Source of the DNA: Telmatactis stephensoni
Taxonomy: Eukaryota > Cnidaria > Anthozoa > Actiniaria > Isophelliidae
Direction: 5' to 3'
DNA: 64,000 nucleotides
Assembly: GCA_029948255.1 (NCBI GenBank)
Contig: JALIZF010001939.1
Coordinates: 1-64,000 of the forward strand
The notes beneath the pieces were generated by a model. It did no database searches, was not told the DNA's origin, and saw only the letters and a list, made by a program, of their open reading frames with translations. Made by a program: the position numbers and the translations under genes. Positions 1 to 59,446 of the stretch are shown here, piece by piece (within the stretch, counting starts at the first letter, position 1; every line of letters begins with the position of its first letter).

Positions 1-3000
1 GCGCTGGTGCGATATGTGGACGCTAGCAAAAGTCCATAGTGCGAATTATGGATTCAAAGTACATGGTCCATAGATTGCGCTGGCGCGATATGTGGACGCC
101 AGCAAAATTCCATAGTGCGAAATATGGATTCAAAGTGCATAGTATAGTACATGGTGTTTTGGTCCATAGATTGCGATGGCGCGATATGTGGACGCTAGCA
201 AAAGTCCATAGTGCGAATTATGGATTAAAAGTACATGGTCCATAGATTGCGCTGGCGCGATATGTGGACGCCAGCAATGCGAACTATGGATTCAAAGTGC
301 ATAGTATAGTACATGGTGTTTTGGTCCATAGATTGCGCTGGCGCGATATGTGGACGCTAGCAAAAGTCCATAGTGCGAACTATGGACTTCAAAGTACATG
401 GTCCATAGATTGCGCTGGCGCGATATGTGGACGCCAGCAATGCGAACTATGGATTCAAAGTGCATAGTATAGTACATGGTGTTTTGGTCCATAGATTGCG
501 CTGGCGCGATATGTGGACGCTAGCAAAAGTCCATAGTGCGAATTATGGATTAAAAGTACATGGTCCATAGATTGCGCTGGCGCGATATGTGGACGCCAGC
601 AAAAGTCCATAGTGCGAACTATGGACTTCAAAGTGCATAGTATAGTACATGGTGTTTTGGTCCATAGATTGCGCTGGCGCGATATGTGGACGCTAGCAAA
701 AGTCCATAGTGCGAACTATGGACTTCAAAGTACATGGTCCATAGATTGCGCTGGCGCGATATGTGGACGCTAGCAATGCGAACTATGGATTCAAAGTGCA
801 TAGTATAGTACATGGTGTTTTGGTCCATAGATTGCGCTGGCGCGATATGTGGACGCTAGCAAAAGTCCATAGTGCGAATTATGGATTCAAAGTACATGGT
901 CCATAGATTGCGCTGGCGCGATATGTGGACGCCAGCAATGCGAACTATGGATTCAAAGTGCATAGTATAGTACATGGTGTTTTGGTCCATAGATTGCGCT
1001 GGCGCGATATGTGGACGCTAGCAAAAGTCCATAGTGGGAATTATGGATTAAAAGTACATGGTCCATAGATTGCGCTAGCGCGATATGTGGACGCCAGCAA
1101 AAGTGCATGGTGCGAATTATGGATTCAAAGTGCATAGTATAGTACATGGTGTTTTGGTCCATAGATTGCTCTGGCGCGATATGTGGACGCTAGCAAAAGT
1201 CCATAGTGCGAACTAACTATGGATTCAAAGTGCATAGTATAGTACATGGTGTTTTGGTCCATAGATTGCTCTGGCGTGATATGTGGACGCTAGCAAAAGT
1301 CCATAGTGCGAACTATGGATTAAAAGTACATGGTCCATAGATTGCGCTGGCGCGATATGTGGACGCCAGCAAAAGTGCATAGTGCGAATTATGGATTCAA
1401 AGTGCATAGTATAGTACATGGTGTTTTGGGCCATAGATTGCGCTGGCGCGATATGTGGGCACCAGCAAAAGTCCATAGTGCGAACTATGGACTTCAAAGT
1501 GCATAGTATAGTACATGGTGTTTTGGTCCATAGATTGCGCCGGCGCGATATGTGGACGCTAGCAAAAGTCCATAGTGCGAACTAACTATGGATTCAAAGT
1601 GCATAGTATAGTACATGGTGTTTTGGTCCATAGATTGCTCTGGCGTGATATGTGGACGCTAGCAAAAGTCCATAGTGCGAACTATGGATTAAAAGTACAT
1701 GGTCCATAGATTGCGCTGGCGCGATATGTGGACGCTAGCAAAAGTCCATAAGTTCGAACTATGGACTTCAAAGTGCATAGTATAGTACATGGTGTTTTGG
1801 TCCATAGATTGCGCTGGCGCGATATGTGGACGCTAGCAAAAGTCCATAGTGCGAACTATGGATTCAAAGTACATAGTATAGTACATGGTGTTTTGGTCCA
1901 TAGATTGCTCTTGCGCGATATGTGGACGCTAGCAAAAGTCCATAGTGCGAACTATGGACTTCAAAGTACATGGTCCATAGATTGCGCTGGCGCGATATGT
2001 GGACGCCAGCAATGCGAACTATGGATTCAAAGTGCATAGTATAGTACATGGTGTTTTGGTCCATAGATTGCGCTGGCGCGATATGTGGACGCCAGCAAAA
2101 GTCCATAGTGCGAACTATGGATTCAAAGTGCATAGTATAGTACATGGTGTTTTGGTCCATAGATTGCGCTGGCGCGATATGTGGACGCTAGCAAAAGTCC
2201 ATAGTGCGAATTATGGATTCAAAGTACATAGTATAGTACATGGTGTTTTGGTCCATAGATTGCGCTGGCGCGATATGTGGACACCAGCAAAAGTCCATAG
2301 TGTGAACTATGGATTCAAAGTGCATAGTATAGTACATGGTGTTTTGGTCCATAGATTGCGCCGGCGCGATATGTGGACGCTAGCAAAAGTCCATAGTGCG
2401 AACTATGGACTTCAAAGTACATGGTCCATAGATTGCGCTGGCGCGATATGTGGACGCCAGCAATGCGAACTATGGATTCAAAGTGCATAGTATAGTACAT
2501 GGTGTTTTGGTCCATAGATTGCGCTGGCGCGATATGTGGACACCAGCAAAAGTCCATAGTGCGAACTATGGATTCAAAGTGCATAGTATAGTACATGGTG
2601 TTTTGGTCCATAGATTGCGCTGGCGCGATATGTGGACACCAGCAAAAGTCCATAGTGTGAACTATGGATTCAAAGTGCATAGTATAGTACATGGTGTTTT
2701 GGTCCATAGATTGCGCCGGCGCGATATGTGGACGCTAGCAAAAGTCCATAGTGCGAACTATGGACTTCAAAGTACATGGTCCATAGATTGCGCTGGCGCA
2801 ATATGTGGACGCCAGCAAAAGTCCATAGTGCGAATTATGGATTCAAAGTGCATAGTATAGTACATGGTGTTTTGTGCCATAGATTGCGCTGGCGCGATAT
2901 GTGGACACCAGCAAAAGTCCATAGTGCGAACTATGGATTAAAAGTGCATAGTATAGTACATGGTGTTTTGGTCCATAGATTGCTCTGGCGCGATATGTGG

Positions 3001-4985
3001 ACGCTAGCAAAAGTCCACAGTGCGAACTATGGACTTCAAAGTACATGGTCCATAGATTGCGCTGGCGCGATATGTGGACACCAGCAAAAGTCCATAGTGC
3101 GAACTATGGATTCAAAGTGCATAGTATAGTACATGGTGTTTTGGTCCATAGATTGCTCTGGCGCGATATGTGGACGCTAGCAAAAGTCCACAGTGCGAAC
3201 TATGGACTTCAAAGTACATGGTCCATAGATTGCGCTGGCGCGATATGTGGACGCTAGCAAAAGTCCATAGTGCGAACTATGGATTCAAAGTACATAGTAT
3301 AGTACATGGTGTTTTGGTCCATAGATTGCTCTTGCGCGATATGTGGACGCTAGCAAAAGTCCATAGTGCGAACTATGGACTTCAAAGTACATGGTCCATA
3401 GATTGCGCTGGCGCGATATGTGGACGCCAGCAATGCGAACTATGGATTCAAAGTGCATAGTATAGTACATGGTGTTTTGGTCCATAGATTGCGCTGGCGC
3501 GATATGTGGACGCTAGCAAAAGTCCATAGTGCGAACTATGGATTAAAAGTACATGGTCCATAGATTGCGCTGGCGCGATATGTGGACGCCAGCAAAAGTC
3601 CATAGTGCGAACTATGGATTCAAAGTGCATAGTATAGTACATGGTGTTTTGGTCCATAGATTGCGCTGGCGCGATATGTGGACGCTAGCAAAAGTCCATA
3701 GTGCGAATTATGGATTCAAAGTACATAGTATAGTACATGGTGTTTTGGTCCATAGATTGCGCTGGCGCGATATGTGGACACCAGCAAAAGTCCATAGTGT
3801 GAACTATGGATTCAAAGTGCATAGTATAGTACATGGTGTTTTGGTCCATAGATTGCGCCGGCGCGATATGTGGACGCTAGCAAAAGTCCATAGTGCGAAC
3901 TATGGACTTCAAAGTACATGGTCCATAGATTGCGCTGGCGCGATATGTGGACGCCAGCAATGCGAACTATGGATTCAAAGTGCATAGTATAGTACATGGT
4001 GTTTTGGTCCATAGATTGCGCTGGCGCGATATGTGGACACCAGCAAAAGTCCATAGTGCGAACTATGGATTCAAAGTGCATAGTATAGTACATGGTGTTT
4101 TGGTCCATAGATTGCGCTGGCGCGATATGTGGACACCAGCAAAAGTCCATAGTGTGAACTATGGATTCAAAGTGCATAGTATAGTACATGGTGTTTTGGT
4201 CCATAGATTGCGCCGGCGCGATATGTGGACGCTAGCAAAAGTCCATAGTGCGAACTATGGACTTCAAAGTACATGGTCCATAGATTGCGCTGGCGCAATA
4301 TGTGGACGCCAGCAAAAGTCCATAGTGCGAATTATGGATTCAAAGTGCATAGTATAGTACATGGTGTTTTGTGCCATAGATTGCGCTGGCGCGATATGTG
4401 GACACCAGCAAAAGTCCATAGTGCGAACTATGGATTAAAAGTGCATAGTATAGTACATGGTGTTTTGGTCCATAGATTGCTCTGGCGCGATATGTGGACG
4501 CTAGCAAAAGTCCACAGTGCGAACTATGGACTTCAAAGTACATGGTCCATAGATTGCGCTGGCGCGATATGTGGACACCAGCAAAAGTCCATAGTGCGAA
4601 CTATGGATTCAAAGTGCATAGTATAGTACATGGTGTTTTGGTCCATAGATTGCTCTGGCGCGATATGTGGACGCTAGCAAAAGTCCACAGTGCGAACTAT
4701 GGACTTCAAAGTACATGGTCCATAGATTGCGCTGGCGCGATATGTGGACGCCAGCAAAAGTCCATAGTGCGAACTATGGATTCAAAGTACATGGTCCATA
4801 GATTGCGCTGGCGCGATATGTGGACGCTAGCAAAAGTCCATAGTGCGAACTATGGATTCAAAGTACATAGTATAGTACATGGTGTTTTGGTCCATAGATT
4901 GCGCTGGCGCGATATGTGGACGCTAGCAAAAGTCCATATGAACTATGGACTTCAAAGTACATGGTCTATAGATTGCGCTGGCGTG
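1..4985. repeat. Complex satellite array (76- and 96-bp monomers)
   Basis: Tandem array of two interleaved monomer types. The short type (about 76 bp) runs from one gcgctggcgcgatatgtgg block to the next; the long type (about 96 bp) carries an extra segment with agtatagtacatggtgtttt. A third variant lacks about 13 bp around the block after gacgccagcaa. Each monomer holds inverted pairs, for example aagtccatag/ctatggactt around a 6-nt loop, so the array is a chain of potential hairpins. Because 96 is a multiple of 3, open frames of 60-168 codons appear on both strands; these are side effects of the period, not genes. The array begins before base 1. Confidence 0.95.
2090..4787. repeat. Higher-order repeat: two copies 1,497 bp apart
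   Basis: Within the satellite, about 1.2 kb at 2090-3290 recurs at 3587-4787 at a constant offset of 1,497 bp, with the same private variants in the same order (for example the gtgtgaac, ttttgtgcc and gtccacag variants). Upstream of this the offset becomes 1,421 bp, a difference of exactly one 76-bp monomer. This indicates a recent multi-monomer duplication, probably by unequal exchange, followed by gain or loss of one short monomer. Confidence 0.85.
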
Positions 4986-5124
4986 AAATGTGGATGCTAG
5001 CAAAAGTCCATAGTTTGAGTTGAACGCAAACTGTGGATTAATACGCCAGTCCACAGATTGCGTTCAACTCAAACTATGGACTTTTGCTAGCGTCCACATT
5101 TCGCGCTAGCGCAATCTATAGACC
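4963..5124. repeat. Palindromic end of the satellite (75-bp arms)
   Basis: Arms 4963-5037 and 5050-5124 are reverse complements with about 4 mismatches in 75 positions and a 12-nt spacer. The right arm continues to about 5163 as one inverted satellite monomer, after which unique sequence starts. The array therefore ends in a single head-to-head monomer pair. Confidence 0.9.
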
Positions 5125-5495: not shown

Positions 5496-8400
5496 TTAAA
5501 CAAAATCAAAAAGATACTGCAAAATATCAAATTCTAGCTGCTTGGCAATCCCCTTGATAAAATCAAAATTAACCAAACATTTGTATTTAGCAGAATCAAT
5601 TTGGTCATCAGCTGAAACTTGAGAAAGAAGATTCAGAGACACAAGAGATGAGATTTGTGAAAGGATACTTGCTGATGGAGCCACTTTGTCTTCCACAATT
5701 GTGTAGAAAATGGCCATGAGCCTGTCTAGTGGAAATGCTTTAGGACCTGCAATATTAATTATAAGCTTGTGTTAAAAGAACTCTTAACTTTAGAACTAGT
5801 TCTCAAGAGCAATTGAACTAGAAGCAGAAGCAACATGCTCAGTCCTAGTCTGTGTGGCACGCATTTCTTTAAAGGGGATTGGGTTTCCTGTGTTACATAA
5901 ATCAGAGTTTAGGGGAGGGGGAGGTTGAGGGGATTGAAGGAAACTTCCCTCCCCCTCCCCCAAAGTCCCTATTTTTGGTTACACAGGAAACCCAATTCTC
6001 AAGATCCTTTACCCCCTAAAGAAATGCTGGCTACTTATGCAGGGAAATGCATCCTTGGTGTCACGTTTCATTAGGGAAGACAATGAACATGGTACTACTG
6101 AGTCTGGGTATGTTGCTTCTGCACTGTTGCTTAACTTGTTGCTAGGATGGGTATGAAGGGTATATGCCATAGTTAGCAAAGGGTAATAGGAAGTAAGCAA
6201 TAGGGAGGTAACCATGACAACATTACTGAACAATCTCATTTGTCAAAACTGGGTCTTATGCAAGCTACTCTCTCTCTCTCTCTCTCTATCAAAAAATCTC
6301 TGTCCTATGCTTTATGAATAATGGTGTGGGTTCTTTTTGTTCTCTCTCATGTACAAAATCTACTCTAATTGCATACATGATAATAATAATAATAATAATA
6401 ATACAATTTTCATAGCGCTTATTCAAGTCTGTTCTAAGCGCTAGGAATAAAAGGATATTAAAATAAATCTACGAACAAAAAGCTAATTTAAAAAGGTAAG
6501 TTTTGAGTTCAGTTTTGAAGGAAGATAGACTAGAAATTGATCTTATGGATGACGGCAATGAATTCCAAAGTTCAGGTCCAGCAACAGAAAAAGAGCAAAA
6601 ACCATATGTTTTAAGATGGTAGGGTCTTGAGGTCAACAGCATCTCAGATGAAGAATGAAGGTTTCGAGTTGGTTTATATCTGGAAATCATGTCACTAACA
6701 TAGGAAGGTGTCAGACCATATAGCGATTTGAAGGTAAGGAGAAGAATCTTATATTTAATCTGTTCCTCAATAGGGAGCCAATGTAGATTAATAAGCACAG
6801 GTGTGATGTGGTGATACTATGATTGTACATATTTACCTATAAGTTGACTATTAATTTTTGCTTTCTTTGCTTTTGCTGCAGCTTTGCCTCTTTTTGACAT
6901 CTTGAGCGCTTGTTTTGAGAAAAACCTTTTGTCTGTTCTGGCGGGATTATAGGATGCCATATATGCGGCAAGGAGGAGGTATTTGGAATAAAATGGGAGC
7001 TCTATATGGGATCTCTGTGGATTACCTATGAGAAGACAAAAAATATAGACATATCTTTATCTATCATCTCTCTCTTCATTATTGCGCTCTAGGATTGTCT
7101 TGTAGTATATGAGGACCACAAGTTTTCAGTAACTCAAATTACTGTCAAGTGTTACCTATAAACAGTTATCTCCTCTACTTTCCTTGCCTCGCCTCGCCTC
7201 GCCTCTCCTTGCCTCTCCTTGCCTCGCCTCACCTCACCTCTCCTTGCCTCACCTCGCCTTGCCTTGCCTCTCCTCTCCTTGCCTCGCCTCGCCTCTCCTT
7301 GCCTCTCCTTGCCTCTCCTCGCCTCACCTCTCCTTGCCTTGTCTCGCCTCACCTCTCCTCTCCTTGCCTTGCCTCTCCTTGCCTTGCCTCTCCTCTCCTC
7401 TCTTGGACTTACCACTAACAGAGGTCAATCCAGTCACAGGATCAACATTAGATTCTAAAGCTAGCATAGACTCCCACTGCTTACTGGACACTTCCCTTAA
7501 GTAAACAGTATTCAGGGCACGTTTGAGATGAGGACCAATGTTGCGCCATAACTTGTGGCTGTCGTTATAGGTAGCTTCACCTTTAGCAATAGGTTCATAA
7601 TACTTTGGAAAATGTAATGCAGCCTAGAATACCAATAAACAGATAAATTAGCAAAGTCAGTACACAAAAGAATATACATAGAATACACTGATAAATAGAA
7701 AAATAAGAGTGATTAAATAAATGAATGAATTTAATAATGAGTGAATGGACAAATGAATGAATGAATGAATGAAATAACTACATGGGTGAATGAATGAATG
7801 ATTGCTTGAATGAATGATGTAATGAATGGATGGATGGATGTATAAACTGAACGAATGTATGGAAATCATAAATTATGAAAGTAATCTTACCAAATGACGC
7901 AGCTCATTAACATCTCGGCACACTGTATAAAACACACTCAAAAGCAATTGACAAAATCCACCATAAAAGTTTTCTGGATGTCCACTTGGACAGTCGAGGC
8001 ACATAATTCCCTGTAACTCAGTTTTAGAATAATCAGGAAAGTGTATCACAATAGGATCATGAAATCCAGTTCCACAAAAGAACTTTTGCCATATGATTTC
8101 TGTTAATAGGATGACACAGATATTCATTGACGTAAGCTCTTGAAGTCTAAAAAATGCTGGTAGAATGTTTATTTCCATTTCACGGAGTCTTTCAGCTTTG
8201 TCCAAGATAATGTAGTATGTCTGGTCTTTCAACTTATTGTCTGAGATTGCTTGTTTCAAAAGTCGAATGAATTCTACCATATTATCACATCGACAATTGT
8301 GATGCTTTTCTTCTTCTTCTTCTACTTGTAGATTGTTTTGAAGTGTTTGAAGTATGTGTTCATACATCAATTTTGCAGAAAAATTCTCAACACAGTTTAT

Positions 8401-8800
8401 AAGTACATGGGGAAGCTGTGAAATAAAAGAAAACATTATTTTGTAGAATAAATGGAAGAAATTAAACATTCAGCCTTTCTGTGGTAACTGTCTTGCCATG
8501 ACTGTGCTGCTGTCACAATCAAATGAAAAACCACTCTAGTTAAGCAAATGTCTGAGAAAAATCTACCCTCCCCTCCCCCTGTACAAAGTCAAATCATCAG
8601 CTCCTCACCTTCAAATGTTTCATGAGTGTTTTGATTACATGTGATTTCCCACTACTTGTATGGCCATAAATAAAAATACTAGGGCAAGCTAAATCACTTC
8701 TACTTCCAAATAAATTCAGCAGAGTCATTATCTGTGATTCTCGGTTCGGTGCCTTTGCCAAGACGGTTTCCATCTCGTCATAGTCCCAAGGACAAGCCAT
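5496..8800 (-). CDS. ORC5: Origin recognition complex subunit 5
   Basis: AAA+ ATPase-like subunit of the origin recognition complex, which binds replication origins in the nucleus and helps load MCM. Five coding exons in transcript order: 8609-8800, 7891-8415, 7413-7623, 6837-7025, 5496-5746. All junctions are GT-AG, phases agree, and the sum is 1,368 nt (455 residues; human ORC5 is 435). Visible are the Walker A motif in [11 protein letters not shown], a Walker B-like [10 protein letters not shown], the [14 protein letters not shown] block, the [12 protein letters not shown] block and the conserved end QYLFDFV. A lysine/alanine-rich stretch near the end of exon 4 is the least conserved part. 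The start at 8800 was chosen because it precedes the conserved RESQ/Walker region and fits the family length. Introns hold a MITE, a LINE fragment and a CCTTG-type simple repeat that almost touches the exon 3 donor. It shares a 474-bp divergent spacer with the P450 gene. Confidence 0.96.
5879..5995. mobile_element. MITE with GGGTTTCCTGTG termini
   Basis: Inverted ends TTGGGTTTCCTGTG and CACAGGAAACCCAA enclose about 90 bp that is itself largely palindromic (purine-rich half, then pyrimidine-rich half). Lies in ORC5 intron 4. Same terminal family as 31226-31352, 43715-43750 and 48612-48798. A second, outer inverted pair (GCATTTCTTTAAAGGGG near 5861 and its complement near 6020) suggests insertion into, or extension of, another element. 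Confidence 0.75.
6378..6800 (-). mobile_element. 3' fragment of an L2/CR1-type LINE
   Basis: On the minus strand 6798-6469 encodes about 109 residues with the terminal reverse-transcriptase ORF signature seen in L2/CR1/Rex-like non-LTR elements: [29 protein letters not shown], the [20 protein letters not shown] block and [16 protein letters not shown]. It is followed by a short 3' tail with gcgctt/aagcgc and a terminal (ATT)n run at 6381-6402. It is 5' truncated, as is usual for LINE copies, and inserted in ORC5 intron 4 in the same orientation as the gene. Confidence 0.88.
7183..7405. repeat. (CCTTG/CCTCG/CTCTC)n simple repeat
   Basis: Pyrimidine-rich pentamer/hexamer repeat in ORC5 intron 3, stopping only about 8 nt from the exon 3 donor (GT at 7412-7411 on the minus strand). 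The long open frames across it on both strands are low-complexity artefacts. Confidence 0.9.
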
Positions 8801-9274
8801 GTTGAAAACTTGAGAACTTTGCAAGAGAAATGACCTCAAATGCCAGCAAGTTTGCAGGCAGAAAATAGAGTTAATAGAGTTCAAAAGGACTATGTAATAA
8901 TCATTTCAATTTGGGGACACAAATTTAAATTTTCAGCAACTTTTAGAGATCGATTTCACTTATTTTCAACGCACATGACCACTTTACCCACTTCGAACTT
9001 TGTCTTTTGCCGCGCGCTCCTGATCACAAAGGATTACATGGGAGGGGAGACTGAGGACTTTGTTGATTTACCTTTGTATGAGCCCTTTTAAGACATTAAA
9101 ACAAACTGAAGCATAAAACATCAAAATAGCTTGTATTTATTAAATTTGTTAATAGTAATTTTTAATTGATTTTATTAGCTTGGATTAAAAAAAGGACAGA
9201 GAAAATCTCTTTACTGACCCCTCCCTGACTAGTATGAAAGTGTCTGCTGGGTTGTACTTGGTTCCAGGCCTTTC
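8801..9274. promoter_or_regulatory. Divergent promoter spacer, ORC5 / P450
   Basis: 474 bp between the ORC5 start codon (minus) and the P450 start (plus). It should hold both transcription starts and 5' UTRs. No clear TATA box or repeat is seen. Confidence 0.5.
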
Positions 9275-12200
9275 ATGCCAAAGGCAAAATTCAATATGGC
9301 GGTCGGTTTTGCTGTTTTGGCCTTTCTTGTCGTTTCTTTACTATTTGTTTGCTTTACTCTACTTTTCTGTAGTGTAGTCCTACTCTATGATCTACGCAAG
9401 AAGTATAGCCTCATTCCTGGACCTAAAGTCGACCATTTTCTTTGGGGATATTCCAGAGAATTCAAACAAAATGCGGGAAAAGCAAATCACCTGGTTTTTG
9501 AAGATCTCGTCCAAAAACATGGCCCCGTTATCATAACTTGGAACATTCATAAACCGATCGTAACAGTTTCAGATCCAAACATCATCGATGGTGTTCTTGA
9601 TCTAACAGAATTTAAAGATTGCATTTCTAGTGGAGACTTAAATACCCTCTTCGAGCAGAGATTCATTGGAAGTCGAACCCAATTTTTGTTTGGTTTTGGT
9701 TCTGTCTTTGACAAGACAAAGGTCAAAATTCATCTGAAAAACTTTAATATTTGTTCTGAGATGTTTTTGAAAGAGCTGGAGACCTTGTCTGATGGTAAAG
9801 CAGAAGTCAAGATGGCAGAACAGTTTGAGAAACTTGCAGTGGATACTATTGCTAAGGTATTTTAGTAAAACTGCTTGTATTAAAGTTAAACTTATTGAAA
9901 ACAATATTCTTCTTTAGAGCAGATTTCATATGAGTGTGAAACAGATTGCGCCATGCCATTACTGTATCAGTGCCGTGATGTCTATAAAAACATTCGAAAT
10001 TCCTGCCGTAACCATACCATGGCAGTGCGGTGCCATTTTCACAGTCATATGAAATCTACTTTATGCATGTGGCACAGCAGAGTAATGTCCCAACATACTG
10101 ATTGTCAAAACTGAACAAATTATAGCCAATTGTTGTCCAATTATTGCCATTACTATGCTTTCCCCCCTGTCCTACCATATTGCACTGTATTTGCTGTTAT
10201 AGAATTATAATAAGAGCCCCATATTCATCTAGCAAATTATAGAGTGATTTAGTAAGTGCGATGCAACATATAAGAGGATACCATGTGCTCTGACAGATTT
10301 CATTCAAAATAACTGTGGATGTCACCATTATCAAGACCCGACGTAGTCAATCGAACATTCGGCAATCGAACTCAATCGAACATCAATCGTTCGATTGATT
10401 TTCGATTGGTTCGGCAATCGGACACAATCGTACTCACAGCAAAGCTTTAGCAATCGAACAAAATCGAACGTTTGGAAATCGAACTATAAGGCAATCGAAC
10501 CAAATCGAACAGTAAATCGAACGGGCACCGTTGTCACACGTGCACGAGAGGAGCAGTAATGACAAAGTCGGCTCAAGACTGCGAAAAGGAAATCGTTCTT
10601 AATTAACTGAATGCGTGGCTAAGGGGTACAATGAGTGCCTCTTCCACGTAGAAAATGGAGAGAAGTTTAGAGTACTGAAAAAAGTAGGAGAAAAAGGATG
10701 GGCATTAAATGTGGTTGATGACAGAGGTCAACTTGGACACTTGCAACGGGAACTTATACCAATTCTCTGGCCAATAGCATCAGGTACATTGTATATCTAA
10801 GTGAGTTCTATTTAGGGGTGTTTAGATATCCGAGTTCGCATGATTTGAAAATGTCGTCACGTTACTGTTCATTTTGGAATTTAAATATTGCCAAAATATG
10901 AATGAATCGAGTTCATAGAGGCTAATAAAACTGAAAGCATTGTTGACTGTTGACTTACGCTCTTTGGTGCCTTATTTACGTTATCTAGCGACCGTATATA
11001 TTTACCGAACAAAATCGAACAATCCAATCAGTTCGATTGGTTGAAGTTCGATTTTGTTCGGAAATCGTACTCACAGCAAAGTTCTCGTTCGATTGTGTTC
11101 GAGTGCCGAACCAATCGGCAACCAATCAAACGATTGGTGTTCGATTGAGTTCGATTGATTTTTTGTTCGGATTTGTTCGATTGACTACGTCGGGTCAAGA
11201 AGAGGATGTGAAAACAAACAAAATTGTGTCCCCATAGGATGTACTGTATACTACAACTGTTACTCTAACCTCAACTTGCATAAAAAGAGTAGTCAGGACT
11301 TCATTAGCATTCTTGATTTTTACCAGATTGCATTTGGCATCAACCTGAATTGCATACAAGATCCAGAAATACCATTCTATAAAGCTTTGCAAGAGTGTCA
11401 ACATGCCATCAATTGGAGCAAGTTGCATCCATTGCATAAATGGGATATCACAAGTTATGAATACCAAAATGATATCATTGAAGCAGTCAAGTATTTGAGG
11501 GATTTTGGTAAAAAAGTTATTGACAGAAGAAGGACTGAGGTTGCAAATGGGGAAGCAATTGATGATGATTACTTGACAAGCATATTGGAAGCCAGTGATG
11601 CCTCTACTATTACTTTTGATGATATGCTGGATGAGTTTGTCACCGTTTTCATTTCAGGTTTGTTATGCCTGCAAAAGCAATTGTATAATTAGAAATGGAG
11701 GTAAAATAGGGCAAGTTGTTGAATATTCCTTGAATGTATACAGTAAATTTTATACATCTTCTGCATTCATTCATTCATTCATTCATTTGTTCATTCATTC
11801 ATTTGTTCATTCATTCATTCATTTAACTTTGACTTAACCTAGATAGTTTTACAGCAATAAGATTGAACAAACACTATATGGGGGAAAACCTGAAAACAAA
11901 TTATGCATTTTTTATATTAAAAATTTATATATATGTATATATAGAATATTCTAGTAGATAATTTAATATTATTTAGAATTTGACAAAAGTCATTATTTAA
12001 TTTATATTCATTCCATTCATTCATTCATTCATTCATTCATTCATTCATTCATTCATTCATTCATTCATTCATTCATTCATTCATTCATTCATTCATTCAT
12101 TCATTCATTCATTCATTCATTCATTCATTCATTCATTCATTCATTCATTCATTCATTCATTCATTCATTCATTCATTCATTCATTCATTCATTCATTCAT

Positions 12201-14392
12201 TCATTCATTCATTCATTCATTCATTCATTCATTCATTCATTCATTCATTCATTCATTCATTCATTCATTCATTCATTCATTCATTCATTCATTCATTCAT
12301 TCATTCATTCATTCATTCATTCATTCATTCATTCATTCATTCATTCATTCATTCATTCATTCATTCATTCATTCATTCATTCATTCATTCATTCATTCAT
12401 TCATTCATTCATTCATTCATTCATTCATTCATTCATTCATTCATTCATTCATTCATTCATTCATTCATTCATTCATTCATTCATTCATTCATTCATTCAT
12501 TCATTCATTCATTCATTCATTCATTCATTCATTCATTCATTCATTCATTCATTCATTCATTCATTCATTCATTCATTCATTCATTCATTCATTCATTCAT
12601 TCATTCATTCATTCATTCATTCATTCATTCATTCATTCATTCATTCATTCATTCATTTGTGTTTTTGTTCATTCATTGATTCAGACATCCATGATTCATT
12701 GTTGGCTGATTCCTTGATTCATAAAATAAACTCCCTCCAAAGTAGAGAAACTTATAAATGGAACCAGCTCTTACTGTTCATCTCTTCAAGTTTAGTCTAG
12801 AATGCAATGTTGGCAGATTTTGTTAGTGAAGATTTTTAAAATCAACAGATAATTTTATAACACAATACATTAAAGGGGTACTTGGATGAAAATACGTCAA
12901 AATTGGAAAGTGGTTTTATATTTATCTATATTGGTTTTATATTTATCTATATTGGTCGTTAATTCCTAAGCTGATGTCAATTAACAACCAATATAGATAA
13001 ATATAAAACCTCCAATCCCAAAAGTTCTGCATTTTAATCATATTATCACCAAGAAATTTTGGTTTAAGATCGAAAAGAACAATAGGGTTGTACTTATGAC
13101 GTCATAGATACACAATGTAGATGCTAAAATACGTGACAACTTTTTATCTGTATATAACCTTTGGAATTTGATGAAAATATATTGCTTGGTGACTATTGGT
13201 CACATATAGATACATTGAACCAAGTTTCAAGTCATTTTAAATTTTTATCGATTTTCATCCAAGTACCCCTTTAAAGAATTAAAGATACTCTATTCTTCTT
13301 GCAGGCCACAGTCAGGTGACCAGTCTTCTTTCAAATATGCTGTCTGAACTCTTACAGCATCCAACAATTGAAGAAAAGTGAGTCATACATGTAGCAATAT
13401 TTGGAATGCATTAAATTAAGCTAGATAAAAAAATGTCATCCCTTCTTATAATTTTCACCTGGGAGTTCTAATATAAACATGTTGAAGGTATCTCAAACAT
13501 GTTTCAAACTTATTGGTAGTGATGAGGATAAGCTTGCCCACAAGGGATGCATAGATCTGTATATCAAAAGCAATTATAATAAGCTGCAGTGCTCAAGTAA
13601 GCTATGTGTCAGCAACAATCCACAAGAATGACCACGTGAGGGCCCTGCCAGGTAGGGGCACCCTGCAAGTAAGAGCTCACTGGCCAACATGGGGGTGGTG
13701 TAGGGGGGTGGGGAGTTGTGTGGGGAGGGGTGGGGATGACGATTTTTACTACAACTGACCAAGAATACCCAAGAATACTAATTTTAGCAAGTACAAAATT
13801 TACTCATTTTGAGGAACTACATAAAATTTGTCACTAAAAATGGTAACCACATTAAAACTCTGACCTGAAACATTGTACTCAAAGGTTCTCTTTTTATTGC
13901 AGGGTTTATGAGGAAGTGATTAATGCCATTCCTAATAACAGCCAGGCAGCTTTTGAAGACTTGGACAAACTCAAGTTCACATCCTGTGTCATCAAGGAAA
14001 CAGTTCGTCTTCACCCTACCATCTCCTCTCTTCAAGCACAGTTGAGAGAATCAACCAAAATTGGAAACCATGTAATCCCCATGAGCACAACAATTCAATT
14101 AATACCGTATCTTAGTAACACAAACCCTCAAATCTGGGAAGACCCCAAGGAATTCACCCCAGACAGGTTTTTAGAAAGTAATGACATGGCTATTGGTGCA
14201 CAGTTTCCATACGCATTGAGGAAGCATAACTATCTCAACGACATTTTTGCTGAGTGTATTGTTAAAGTTGTTTTTCCAAGTTTACTGAATAAGTTTAAAA
14301 TTGTATTTAAAGCTAACCAAGATGTGAGGCCTACAGGGGACTTAATGTCTGTTCCTAATGATGGTGTTGTTTGCACTTTGATGAAAATCTGA
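9275..14392 (+). CDS. CYP46-like cytochrome P450 without the haem-binding motifs
   Basis: Four coding exons: 9275-9856, 11327-11657, 13305-13377, 13903-14392. GT-AG junctions and phases agree; the total is 1,476 nt (491 residues), normal for a membrane P450. An N-terminal hydrophobic anchor (about residues 8-38) is followed by a basic/proline segment (RKKYSLIPGPK), placing it in the ER membrane. Spacing and blocks match cholesterol 24-hydroxylase (CYP46A1): IPGP, QKHGPV, QRFIGS, DTIAKIAFG, DRRRTEVANGE, and DEFVTVFISGH. ExxR is kept (E361/R364) and the PERF-type motif reads PDRF (415-418). However, the Cys-loop reads FPYALRKHNYLN, so the haem-ligand cysteine is Tyr439 and both conserved glycines and the arginine are changed. 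The I-helix reads SGHSQ instead of AGxET, and the C-helix W-xxx-R is K-xxx-K. The second in-frame ATG at 9296 has the better Kozak context. CYP46A1 hydroxylates cholesterol; this protein is unlikely to do so. No stops or frameshifts, so a pseudoenzyme is more likely than an old pseudogene. Confidence 0.9.
9916..10062. mobile_element. MITE, AGAGCAGATTTC family, copy 1
   Basis: Inverted ends AGAGCAGATTTCATATGAGT and its near complement (ending ATATGAAATCTACTTT) enclose about 100 bp rich in gtgcc/acggc palindromes and the phrase gatgtctataaaa. In P450 intron 1. Related copies at about 15260-15376 and 47883-48038. Confidence 0.8.
10337..11194. mobile_element. 858-bp TIR element with AATCGAAC-rich ends and 6-bp target duplication
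   Basis: The termini CCCGACGTAGTCAATCGAAC and its exact complement are flanked on both sides by TCAAGA (10331-10336 and 11195-11200), a 6-bp target-site duplication. About 200 bp at each end consists of many direct and inverted copies of AATCGAAC-type octamers, a subterminal repeat arrangement typical of transposase-binding regions. The centre carries a HIRAN-like coding fragment. No transposase is visible, so it is non-autonomous. The superfamily is not clear; 6-bp duplications occur in Dada and Maverick elements among others. In P450 intron 1. Confidence 0.88.
10603..10800 (+). pseudogene. HIRAN-domain-like fragment inside the TIR element
   Basis: An open frame from 10603 to the TAA at 10798 has no ATG at its head and reads ECVAKGYNECLFHVENGEKF, then FRVLKKVGEKGWALNVVDD and RGQLGHLQRELIPILWP. 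The pattern (GY/H start, GE, then AVAV-like strand, G, VGHLPRE-like turn) fits the HIRAN DNA-binding fold. Seen: the reading frame and motif. Inferred: HIRAN assignment and capture by the transposon. It may be an exon of a longer ORF of the autonomous parent. Confidence 0.5.
12012..12656. repeat. (CATT)n microsatellite, about 645 bp
   Basis: More than 155 virtually uninterrupted copies of CATT in P450 intron 2, with shorter interrupted runs just upstream (11765-11824). The exact assembled length is probably unreliable. Confidence 0.98.
12874..13270. mobile_element. 397-bp MITE with TTAA target duplication
   Basis: The ends AGGGGTACTTGGATGAAAAT and its exact complement are flanked by TTAA (12870-12873, 13271-13274), as in piggyBac- or Kolobok-type elements. 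An internal inverted pair around 12911-13011 (ttatctatattgg) gives a second hairpin. Lies in P450 intron 2, 31 bp before exon 3. Confidence 0.88.
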
Positions 14393-18300: not shown

Positions 18301-21300
18301 AACCTGCAAGACAACGCTAAATGACTGTAGTTTCCTAAGGAAAAGTACTAGTAGCCTAAACTACATGACTATTTTCTGTGTGGGAAGGGAGGGGGTTCGT
18401 TCGAGCCTTCGAACTACCCCAAGCGACCTGAGATATATTTATATTAAAAGTTCGTCCCCATATTCACCTTATCTTCCAGAGCCAAGGATGGACTGTCTTC
18501 TAGCCCCCTCCCCCCACCTCCCACGCCCCCCCTCCCACCCCAACCCTCCTTCAGTGGTCCGTCCTTTCAAGTATATCAAAGAACAAAGCGTATAAATACC
18601 TTGCTAATAATCGTGATATTATTACTGTAGGTGGTAAATCGTTGGGGTGACTCTTCAACCCTCGTGCTGTTGCTCGTGATAAATTCGTGTCATAATATGT
18701 TTGCGTGCCAGTGCAACCTAGATCTGGATAAGAAAGATTTGGTGTAAGCAAGAGACCATAATACTAAGAGAGCGAAACTCAGTATTGATGTCTGTGCGAT
18801 GTTCGTGGCGACTAAGGCTATTTTTAGTAACTTCGCCATCGCGCGCGCAAAACTCTCGAACAGCAGAATTTGTTTTTTGATGTGCGCGCGAACAGGACCG
18901 ATATTGCCTTTGGCAAACATATTTTGTTTGAGAGCCTTGCGCACGCGATGGCGCGACTCACTGAACTCGTACATTAACCATAAATTTGTAACTACTTCAT
19001 TCAACTGAAGATTGCTTTGTGAAAGCCGCAAATATATTAAAAGCATGTTTCTATGATATCATACTTACTGTCAAACATAGTCCGTGACTTGCCTTCTTGA
19101 AAAATACCAGAAAATATATGTTTACCTGTGCAGAGAGGTAACTGTTACCTTTGAGGGGTATCCGCCCTACGTGGGAGTGTACTTTGAGGATATACAAGGT
19201 TGTAAGTGGGTATTACGTAATAACTGGTACATTGCGCGGGCTCTGATTGGTCGAAAACCGTGTGCAATTACAGTTTATATAAAAATTGGTATATTACGCG
19301 CGATCTGATTGGTCGAGAACCGTGCGCGATAACAGTACACACACTTAGATGACGTCATTGAATTTTACGGTTGAATCTGATTGGTTGAAATGTGTCGATG
19401 TATATTATATAAAACAAATATATTCCATTTTTCCGTTGGTCCGTATACTCTAATAGATGCACATGGGACGTCAAAATGTGGTGAGAACAACAGTCACGCC
19501 ACTCGACTTCGTCTTAGTTTGTTCTCTCACCACATTTTGACGTCATCTGTGCATCTATTAGAGTACAGACGCACGGAAAAATGGAATTTATTTGTTAAAT
19601 AAAGCATCAGGGGGTCCGTTTCTCAAAAGACCCAAAACCTTTACGGCCCCGTTAACTTACCTGATAAGGTTTACGCGTGTTTCTTGAAGTGCACGTTATT
19701 TTTAATTCGTATGATTTTACAAGCAAGTTTACGGATGGTCGCGTGCTCCCGTAATTTTTCCTGTATATCAACGAGCCCAAAAAGTTATCGAGTCTTTCGA
19801 GAAACGGGACCCAACATTTTGGCGGCATCACGCATCACGCGCAGTTCACAACACGCATCACGCAGATAGTTTTTTAGCAATCATTTCTCACGTAAAAGCA
19901 CGTTGCCCGGCCTATCAAACTTTGTGCAATACCAAGAACATATTTAATATATTACCATGCTTATGCCATGCGATGGAAACGTCCTCAACTACTGCACCTA
20001 CATTTCCAAGTCTCTGTGCTGATGCTCTTACGAGTTCATTGACATCGGGTTCAAATTGAGGGTCAAATCCTTCGCTAACAAGTCCAACACGAAGGCCTTT
20101 GATATCACCAGTTAACTGAAAAATAGATTTAAATCGTATCGACAATCGTAGACATTAGGTCATGGGAAAATCCCTTTCTAGTTCTTAGTTCCACACGTTC
20201 ATACGTACCTAATCGTAAATTATTCCCCCCTCCCTTCCTCTTTAATCAATACAGTGGTTAATAGTCTTGTTTCTGTATTGAATAGGCATCGGGAATACTT
20301 TGATGGAGGGAATGGAGAGAGGGAAGGGGAGAAGGTAGTCATATTGTGTGCAACAGCAAGTGATAACATGACGAGTATGCGCGAGCCGCTGGACGGAAGT
20401 GGCCTCAATTACGGTTTTAACCTGGCTTAGGGCTACCTCTCTCATAAATAGAGTCGTATATAGTCTCCACAAAGTTTATCGGAGCATCACATTCGAGTGC
20501 AGAAGTATGAACAGCTAGAAATGATCCTTTCAAAATTATCCATTTGTCCAAGACAATAGAAGTTGGAGACATGCGCAGATGTTATCACTTGCGTGCTGCT
20601 ATTGTGTGCGCTTTGAAAAATACAGTATAATCCCGATTCCTCGACCCGTTCCTCGAACCCTCAGTCAATTCTCGAACCTTCCGATAACTCAAACAAATTG
20701 TTTTTACCATTGGATTTGTTTCACCGTATTTTTACCCCCGATTTCACGAACTCCCGATCTCTCGAACCAATAGTTTTCGACAAATCGCAATTCTTCTGTA
20801 ATGGCAGTAGAAATTAAGCTATTAAAACCAATAAAACCGATCAACAAATCAGGCAACAGAGTACTACCTCTTTAGTGTATTGTGGTATTTTTAGATCCTT
20901 TGGTTGTCTTGGGTCCATATCATTGTCTAGACCAGCAATTGCCTTTGAAAGAAAGAGAGTTGATGCCACAGAGTTCTAGGCCCCGTTTCACAAAGCATAT
21001 ACGTAACTTAAGGCGCTGTTACACTGTGCAATTTTCTCAGCAACTTGTCTCGCAACGGCCGTTGAAGAGACCAATGTAGCTGGAGAATTGCACATGTGTA
21101 ACAGGGGTTGTCCTCGCAATGCTTTTTGTTGCGCGCAGCGTTGCAGTGAAGTAGAACTCAGTTCTACTTTCGCAATGGATTGCAGCAACTTGCAACGCCT
21201 GTTCACAGTGTATCACCCCTCCAGCAACTTTCCTCGCAATTTTTGAGGCACGTTTTCTACGAGCGCATGCGCAATTTCTCATTTCGCTCTGAGGAGCTCT

Positions 21301-55768: not shown

Positions 55769-59446
<3,678 letters not shown>

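Follow-up and report, generated by a model that had tools for sequence, protein, structure and literature searches.

A CYP46-like P450 of a sea anemone without its haem-binding residues, most likely a conserved pseudoenzyme

We describe a P450 gene from the sea anemone Telmatactis stephensoni, found in a 64,000-nucleotide stretch of contig JALIZF010001939.1 (assembly GCA_029948255.1; the whole stretch is called the window below), whose product carries tyrosine in place of the cysteine that ligates haem. As read from its sequence, the gene most likely encodes a conserved P450 pseudoenzyme and is not a pseudogene: catalytic residues are lost, and the protein is conserved across two species, with a relative in Actinia tenebrosa. 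We consider it probable that the product is a membrane-anchored protein of P450 fold without haem-thiolate, that the loss is ancestral with Actinia and that the fold has been kept by selection. An earlier note on this DNA had preferred a P450 pseudoenzyme over random decay, a preference supported here by the shared loss in Actinia and by intact paralogues in the same genome.

The gene is composed of four exons on the plus strand, which join into an open frame of 491 residues (492 codons with the stop, none of them an internal stop), with GT..AG borders at all three introns and intron phases 0, 1 and 2 (Table 1). A spliced alignment, which used CYP46A1 as query and was not supplied with exon borders, returned internal borders identical to those of this model, in agreement with the four-exon, 491-codon frame without stop or phase error claimed in the earlier note. 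The protein scored 182 bits against the Pfam P450 profile (PF00067, cut-off 22.8), carries the ExxR and PxRF motifs that mark membership of the cytochromes P450, and has cholesterol 24-hydroxylase (CYP46A1) as its top PDB sequence match (E 8e-46). Translation likely starts at M8 (ATG at 9296), giving a product of 484 residues, because this codon has A at -3 and G at +4 and because the Actinia protein, like its match, begins at this point. Hydropathy peaks at 2.95 (residue 14), with every later stretch at 1.6 or below, and the N-terminal anchor points to a location in the endoplasmic reticulum (ER). Two of the introns contain repeats: intron 1 holds an element of ~860 bp (10335-11196) that is bounded by inverted ends of 23 bp without mismatch, has AATCGAAC repeats inside and looks like a short inverted-repeat transposon, and intron 2 holds an ATTC repeat of 163 copies with 99% match (12006-12657).

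Alignment with 33 intact CYP46-like sequences located the changes around the haem site. Tyr439 (14231-14233) stands at the column of the haem-ligand Cys, and the two glycines and the arginine around it are also replaced (Gly to Arg435, Arg to His437 and Gly to Asn441). The loop reads FPYALRKHNYLND in the window protein versus FPFSLGPRTCIGK in a typical intact member, and at the position of the FxxGxRxCxG ligand motif the window protein reads FPYALRKHNYLN. These replacements, which the earlier note had reported, were seen both in the PDB match and in the 33-row alignment. In the I helix, SGHSQV stands against AGQETT and departs from the pattern [AG]Gx[DE]T[TS]; the acid/alcohol pair is Ser307-Gln308, the Ser-Gln pair named before. 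The C helix turned out differently from that account, according to which its Trp and Arg had become Lys/Lys: both columns of the WxxxR motif are deleted, lying inside a 10-residue gap, and the Lys/Lys replacement was rejected. The segment R129-N158 is 30 residues long in the window protein and 28 in Actinia, compared with 40 in 33/33 intact relatives. Further downstream, Ala374 occupies a column that we take to be the beta1-4 Arg contacting a haem propionate in other P450s. The motifs that were said to be retained, ExxR (E361/R364) and PDRF (415-418), are indeed intact in the alignment, and so are the IPGP hinge and the hydrophobic N terminus; of the remaining invariant columns, most are also kept.

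For a more global comparison, we took the 50 columns in which the intact rows agree to at least 94%. Nine of them were classed as haem contacts (the C-helix Trp and Arg, two Thr of the I helix, the beta1-4 Arg, and Phe, Gly, Cys and Gly of the loop), an assignment made post hoc, with the table already seen, and on the basis of P450 structure. All nine are lost in the window protein, and 9/9 in the Actinia protein (P0001), while the other invariant columns are kept in 32/41 and 30/41 cases, respectively (Fisher 1.9e-5 and 6.7e-5). The haem site would not be singled out in this way by random decay. Haem-thiolate chemistry is very unlikely in a protein that has neither the thiolate nor the propionate anchors nor the I-helix Thr and that is missing much of the C helix. 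Such a protein would no longer hold haem-thiolate and so could not be a P450 monooxygenase; we infer that it binds no haem.

The relative in Actinia was found by searching a protein database of ~5.8 billion entries, once with the window protein as query and once with a profile of two rows, the second search being cut at E 1e-40. A single close relative emerged, P0001, named "cholesterol 24-hydroxylase-like isoform X2" and the best match of the window protein, with 54.4% identity over 454 amino acids; the remaining seven matches to the window protein were distant P450s at E 1.6e-9 or weaker. The change from Cys to Tyr, which the earlier note had proposed to look for in related species, is shared, and so are the other replacements in the loop and the deletion in the C helix: the loop of P0001 reads PYCLRKHCYINDNFAEC, with Tyr in the Cys column, and R435, K436, H437, Y439, N441 and D442 are identical in both proteins. 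In the tree the two are sisters with support of 100/100, and the stem that they share measures 1.24 changes per site. Long-branch attraction alone was rejected as the cause of this pairing, given 54.4% identity between the two versus at most 35.2% to others, plus the shared deletion. When P0001 was compared with the T. stephensoni genome, its top three matches were the long exons of the window gene (E 6e-52, 1e-50 and 6e-34), followed by an intact paralogue (E 2e-26). A search of the protein database for anthozoan CYP46s named none from Actinia apart from P0001 in the best 120 of 262 rows, and species sampling is therefore uneven.

Selection on the frame was assessed by neutral simulation, in which 500 pairs of lineages evolved by unconstrained substitution (substitutions only) down to 54% identity. 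None of the pairs (0/500) was free of stops, and the minimum was four. Regional identity between the window protein and P0001 was then compared across 15 regions. Residues 229-265, which we take to be helix G, scored highest, with 30/37 identical positions (Fisher 8e-4 versus the rest), and conservation among these regions was lowest in the C-helix segment (8/20, 0.25) and the beta1-4 region (12/35). The Cys loop is identical at 14/19 positions between the two proteins, yet shows an identity of 0.20 to the intact rows. Overall identity was 0.54, compared with 0.58, 0.58 and 0.65 in three intact pairs, which represent other species pairs.

The surveyed genome (483.5 Mb, 1782 contigs) contains at least 97 matches to PF00067. 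Spliced models from 12 regions gave 12 full-length CYP46-like proteins, all of them Cys-bearing, and one more with a stop, with one region yielding none; the intact CYP46 paralogue that the earlier note had suggested seeking is thus present many times over. Four exons with phases 0, 1 and 2, as in the window gene, recur in 10/12 of these models, and the third exon measures 73 nt in 11/12. Models C291 and C56 (99.4% identical) are probably alleles of one gene. Model L045 may be a chimera of neighbouring genes; it joins exons ~7 kb apart, skipping an open exon 4 that lies closer (C2:2009572-2010066), and was left out of the tree. Two C-terminal pieces were rejected as extra genes, being overlaps of neighbouring sequence regions. 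Seven full-length models (one possibly chimeric) and the one with a stop form a tandem cluster on both strands at C2:1989000-2047000, on the same contig as the window gene and ~2 Mb from it. The closest named relatives of the intact paralogues are from the sea anemone Actinostola (85.9%, 73.1% and ~70% over 314 residues), consistent with an actiniarian source of the window. A haplotype or recent second copy of the haem-less gene was rejected, with no other place in the genome, among the best candidates scored, exceeding 40% identity to either protein. Finally, a CYP46 profile run on 50 genome loci, a non-random sample, gave 47 rows with 25 distinct segments spanning the Cys column; 24 of the 25 carry Cys, and the sole exception is the window gene with Tyr.

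Several observations weigh against a conserved protein with an ancestral loss of haem. Invariant columns outside the haem class were lost too, 9/41 in the window protein and 11/41 in P0001, with three of the 11 falling within a stretch absent from the Actinia isoform. P0001 is itself a predicted isoform, missing 26 residues before the I-helix Gly relative to the window protein, a gap that points to use of another donor site in this isoform; its I helix, GQDQLT, retains the acid, with the first Thr changed to Gln. The window lineage is the faster of the two (tip 0.57 versus 0.30 for Actinia) and has 16 private changes at conserved columns versus five in Actinia, with 24 shared; recent relaxation in the window lineage is therefore possible. 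Conservation of the Cys loop, when set against the rest of the protein, is not significant (Fisher 0.10). The shared loss is known from two species only, and Nematostella, Exaiptasia, Actinostola and corals yielded no member of the clade in the protein database. CYP46s of Actinostola, Oculina, Nematostella, Exaiptasia, Stylophora, Acropora, Montipora and Porites are present there, and the lack of a haem-less form in those anthozoans may be due to genuine loss, to poor gene models or to sampling. In addition, changing the invariant Cys gave inactive, misfolded protein in most P450s tested, according to the available part of PMC3990721, and a stable apo fold must therefore be assumed here. The accompanying changes may be what lets such a fold stand.

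A pseudogene in slow decay, derived from a CYP46-like paralogue and still open by chance, would explain the faster window branch and its 16 private changes at conserved columns; moreover, the gene is known from genomic sequence alone, and the tandem CYP46 array includes a model with a stop. However, the loss is common to Actinia, the frame is open in both species, and the simulated pairs, with substitutions only, never fell below four stops. With 54% identity, fold motifs kept and donor and acceptor pairs intact at 3/3 introns as well, we regard decay as unlikely. An artefact of the gene model, in the form of an alternative exon with a normal Cys loop or of misjoined exons, seems hardly credible. 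Its exon joins do rest on genomic sequence, not cDNA, but no FxxGxRxCxG-like motif occurs in the six frames of the 64-kb window, and an overlooked exon encoding an intact Cys loop, which the earlier note had named as fatal to its own proposal, was therefore rejected. Likewise, a profile of the intact family matched exons 1, 2 and 4 only (exon 3 is too short to register), the phases and the 73-nt exon agree with 10/12 and 11/12 intact models, respectively, and the Actinia protein carries the same loop.

The remaining alternatives grant the protein a chemistry of its own. It could be a haemoprotein with Tyr439 or His437 as new ligand, its P450 fold housing a centre like that of catalases or peroxidases. 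The loop residues R435, K436, H437, Y439, N441 and D442 are identical in both proteins, and the Arg four residues ahead of Tyr presumably resembles the proximal side of catalase. A further point in favour is yeast Sfh5, a haemoprotein among lipid-transfer proteins, for which the accessible text of PMC7462610 uses the word tyrosinate. Such a centre is nevertheless quite unlikely, as the propionate-side anchors are lost (C-helix Trp and Arg, beta1-4 Arg and the Arg of the Cys loop), the C helix has become shorter, and Arg and Asn now stand in place of the glycines by which the loop can approach haem. A non-redox enzyme, running a haem-free isomerase-, lyase- or hydrolase-like reaction in the P450 cavity, could make use of the identical polar residues R435, H437, Y439, N441 and D442 in the former haem loop. 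We judge it very unlikely: a literature search gave no precedent for haem-free catalysis in a P450 fold in the parts of the sources that were accessible, and the beta1-4 (12/35) and C-helix (8/20) segments are the least conserved regions compared.

The favoured role for a haem-less, P450-folded pseudoenzyme is that of a binding or partner protein at the ER membrane, because the bacterial precedent EryCII, considered below, shows the same pair of losses. The grip on haem would have been lost once, in the common ancestor with A. tenebrosa, through rewriting of the Cys loop, shortening of the C helix and replacement of the I-helix Thr and the beta1-4 Arg, and the fold would thereafter have been maintained by selection. 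The protein might then function through binding, by docking onto a partner enzyme of the ER, whether an active P450 or some other enzyme, or, alternatively, by taking up a sterol-like ligand where substrate was once bound. Candidate contact surfaces are helix G and the Cys loop, which has become basic. More speculatively, animals may have independently evolved a haem-free P450 regulatory subunit, a counterpart of EryCII/DesVIII, that would serve the ER sterol enzymes of sea anemones as an obligate partner or as a sensor of ligands. The shared anatomy under this doubtful proposal would comprise a lost Cys, a lost C helix and a kept I/K/L core, in this case membrane-anchored.

Table 1. Features of the P450 gene, in window coordinates
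Feature	Position	Strand	Details
Exon 1	9275..9856	+	Residues 1-194; phase 0 donor
N-terminal hydrophobic anchor	9296..9394	+	Residues 8-40; followed by IPGP hinge, residues 47-50
R129-N158 segment (B-C loop/C helix, shorter by 10 residues)	9659..9748	+	C-helix Trp and Arg absent
Exon 2	11327..11657	+	Residues 195-304 plus first base of Gly305
Helix G region (name assumed)	11429..11539	+	Residues 229-265; 30/37 identical to Actinia
Exon 3	13305..13377	+	73 nt; I-helix GHSQV, with Ser307-Gln308 at the acid/alcohol pair
Exon 4 and stop codon	13903..14392	+	
ExxR of the K helix, kept	13997..14008	+	E361-R364
Ala374 replacing Arg	14036..14038	+	Arg in 33/33 intact rows; Met in Actinia
PDRF (PERF motif), kept	14159..14170	+	Residues 415-418
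Rewritten Cys loop	14201..14257	+	Residues 429-447: R435 K436 H437 x Y439 x N441 D442

Head to head with the P450 gene, with ~495 bp between the starts, lies an ORC5-like gene (8800-5496, minus strand), which has Pfam support (AAA_16 and ORC5_lid) for 7873-8905 only, its last exon having been placed by eye. Its introns contain simple repeats and a reverse-transcriptase-like fragment (6469-6816), recognized by eye and without a Pfam match. Downstream of the P450 gene are exons of an amidase (PF01425; 15331-23675, minus strand), with three matches above the cut-off and one, at 19915-20154, below it. A satellite of ~5 kb (116-5014) is built of 76- and 96-bp units in higher-order patterns. Two open reading frames matching DUF7802 (55995-58485, minus strand), one of them adjoining a long low-complexity stretch, and a fatty-acid hydroxylase-type exon (PF04116; 61323-62234, plus strand), ~47 kb from the P450 gene and possibly part of a lipid-oxidation gene, lie towards the far end. 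No Rfam family matched the window at gathering scores.

The haem Cys is taken to define a P450, and annotation can discard models that do not have it. In a cnidarian CYPome study, candidates missing at least one Prosite motif were classed as gene fragments, and the haem-loop deviations in the tabulated cnidarian CYPs comprised one G-to-A change and the CYP20 deletion (PMC8110760, in the part available); a gene of the window type would therefore have been set aside. An exact-word search of the open-licence literature found no animal P450 without the ligand Cys in the text accessible there, and one may exist in print. Similarly, the available portion of a fly enzyme survey that covers pseudoenzymes (PMC12869072) names no P450 among them. 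If our reading is true, a conserved haem-less animal P450 implies that such filters hide real genes. It would also make the animal P450 fold testable as a non-catalytic binding or regulatory protein, with the intact paralogues as natural controls.

By descent, the protein appears to belong to the CYP46 clan, as indicated by its best PDB match and by the phases of 10/12 models; the tree was built without other P450 clans and thus did not test clan placement. Membership of a CYP family takes at least about 40% identity, and among the intact rows of the tree the best identity is 30.5%, which places the protein outside the CYP46 family. With CYP46A1 and the anthozoan P450s of the CYP46 clan it shares ExxR, PxRF, the IPGP hinge and the N-terminal anchor, as well as the intron phases of the intact models. 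Unlike CYP46A1, it has a changed Cys, Gly, Gly and Arg in the loop, a C-helix segment shorter by 10 residues, and neither the I-helix Thr nor the beta1-4 Arg. The animal P450 CYP20A1 also has a degenerate I helix and a haem-loop deletion but, in contrast to the window protein, retains the Cys (FGFAGKRKCPG in Hydra), as given in the accessible part of PMC8110760. Haem-less P450 homologues are already known in bacteria, where EryCII, DesVIII and AknT serve as activators of glycosyltransferases. EryCII is a P450 homologue without Cys and without the C and C' helices that activates a glycosyltransferase, which it contacts via an added N-terminal helix (available text of PMC3391682), and AknT, without the conserved Cys, activates AknS (PMC10054333, as far as its text is available). 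By sequence, the window protein resembles EryCII in the absence of Cys and in the loss of the C helix, a pair of losses that presumably arose by convergence, and differs from EryCII, whose type is marked by a glycosyltransferase partner and an A'' helix, in bearing a hydrophobic N-terminal anchor, not a contact helix.

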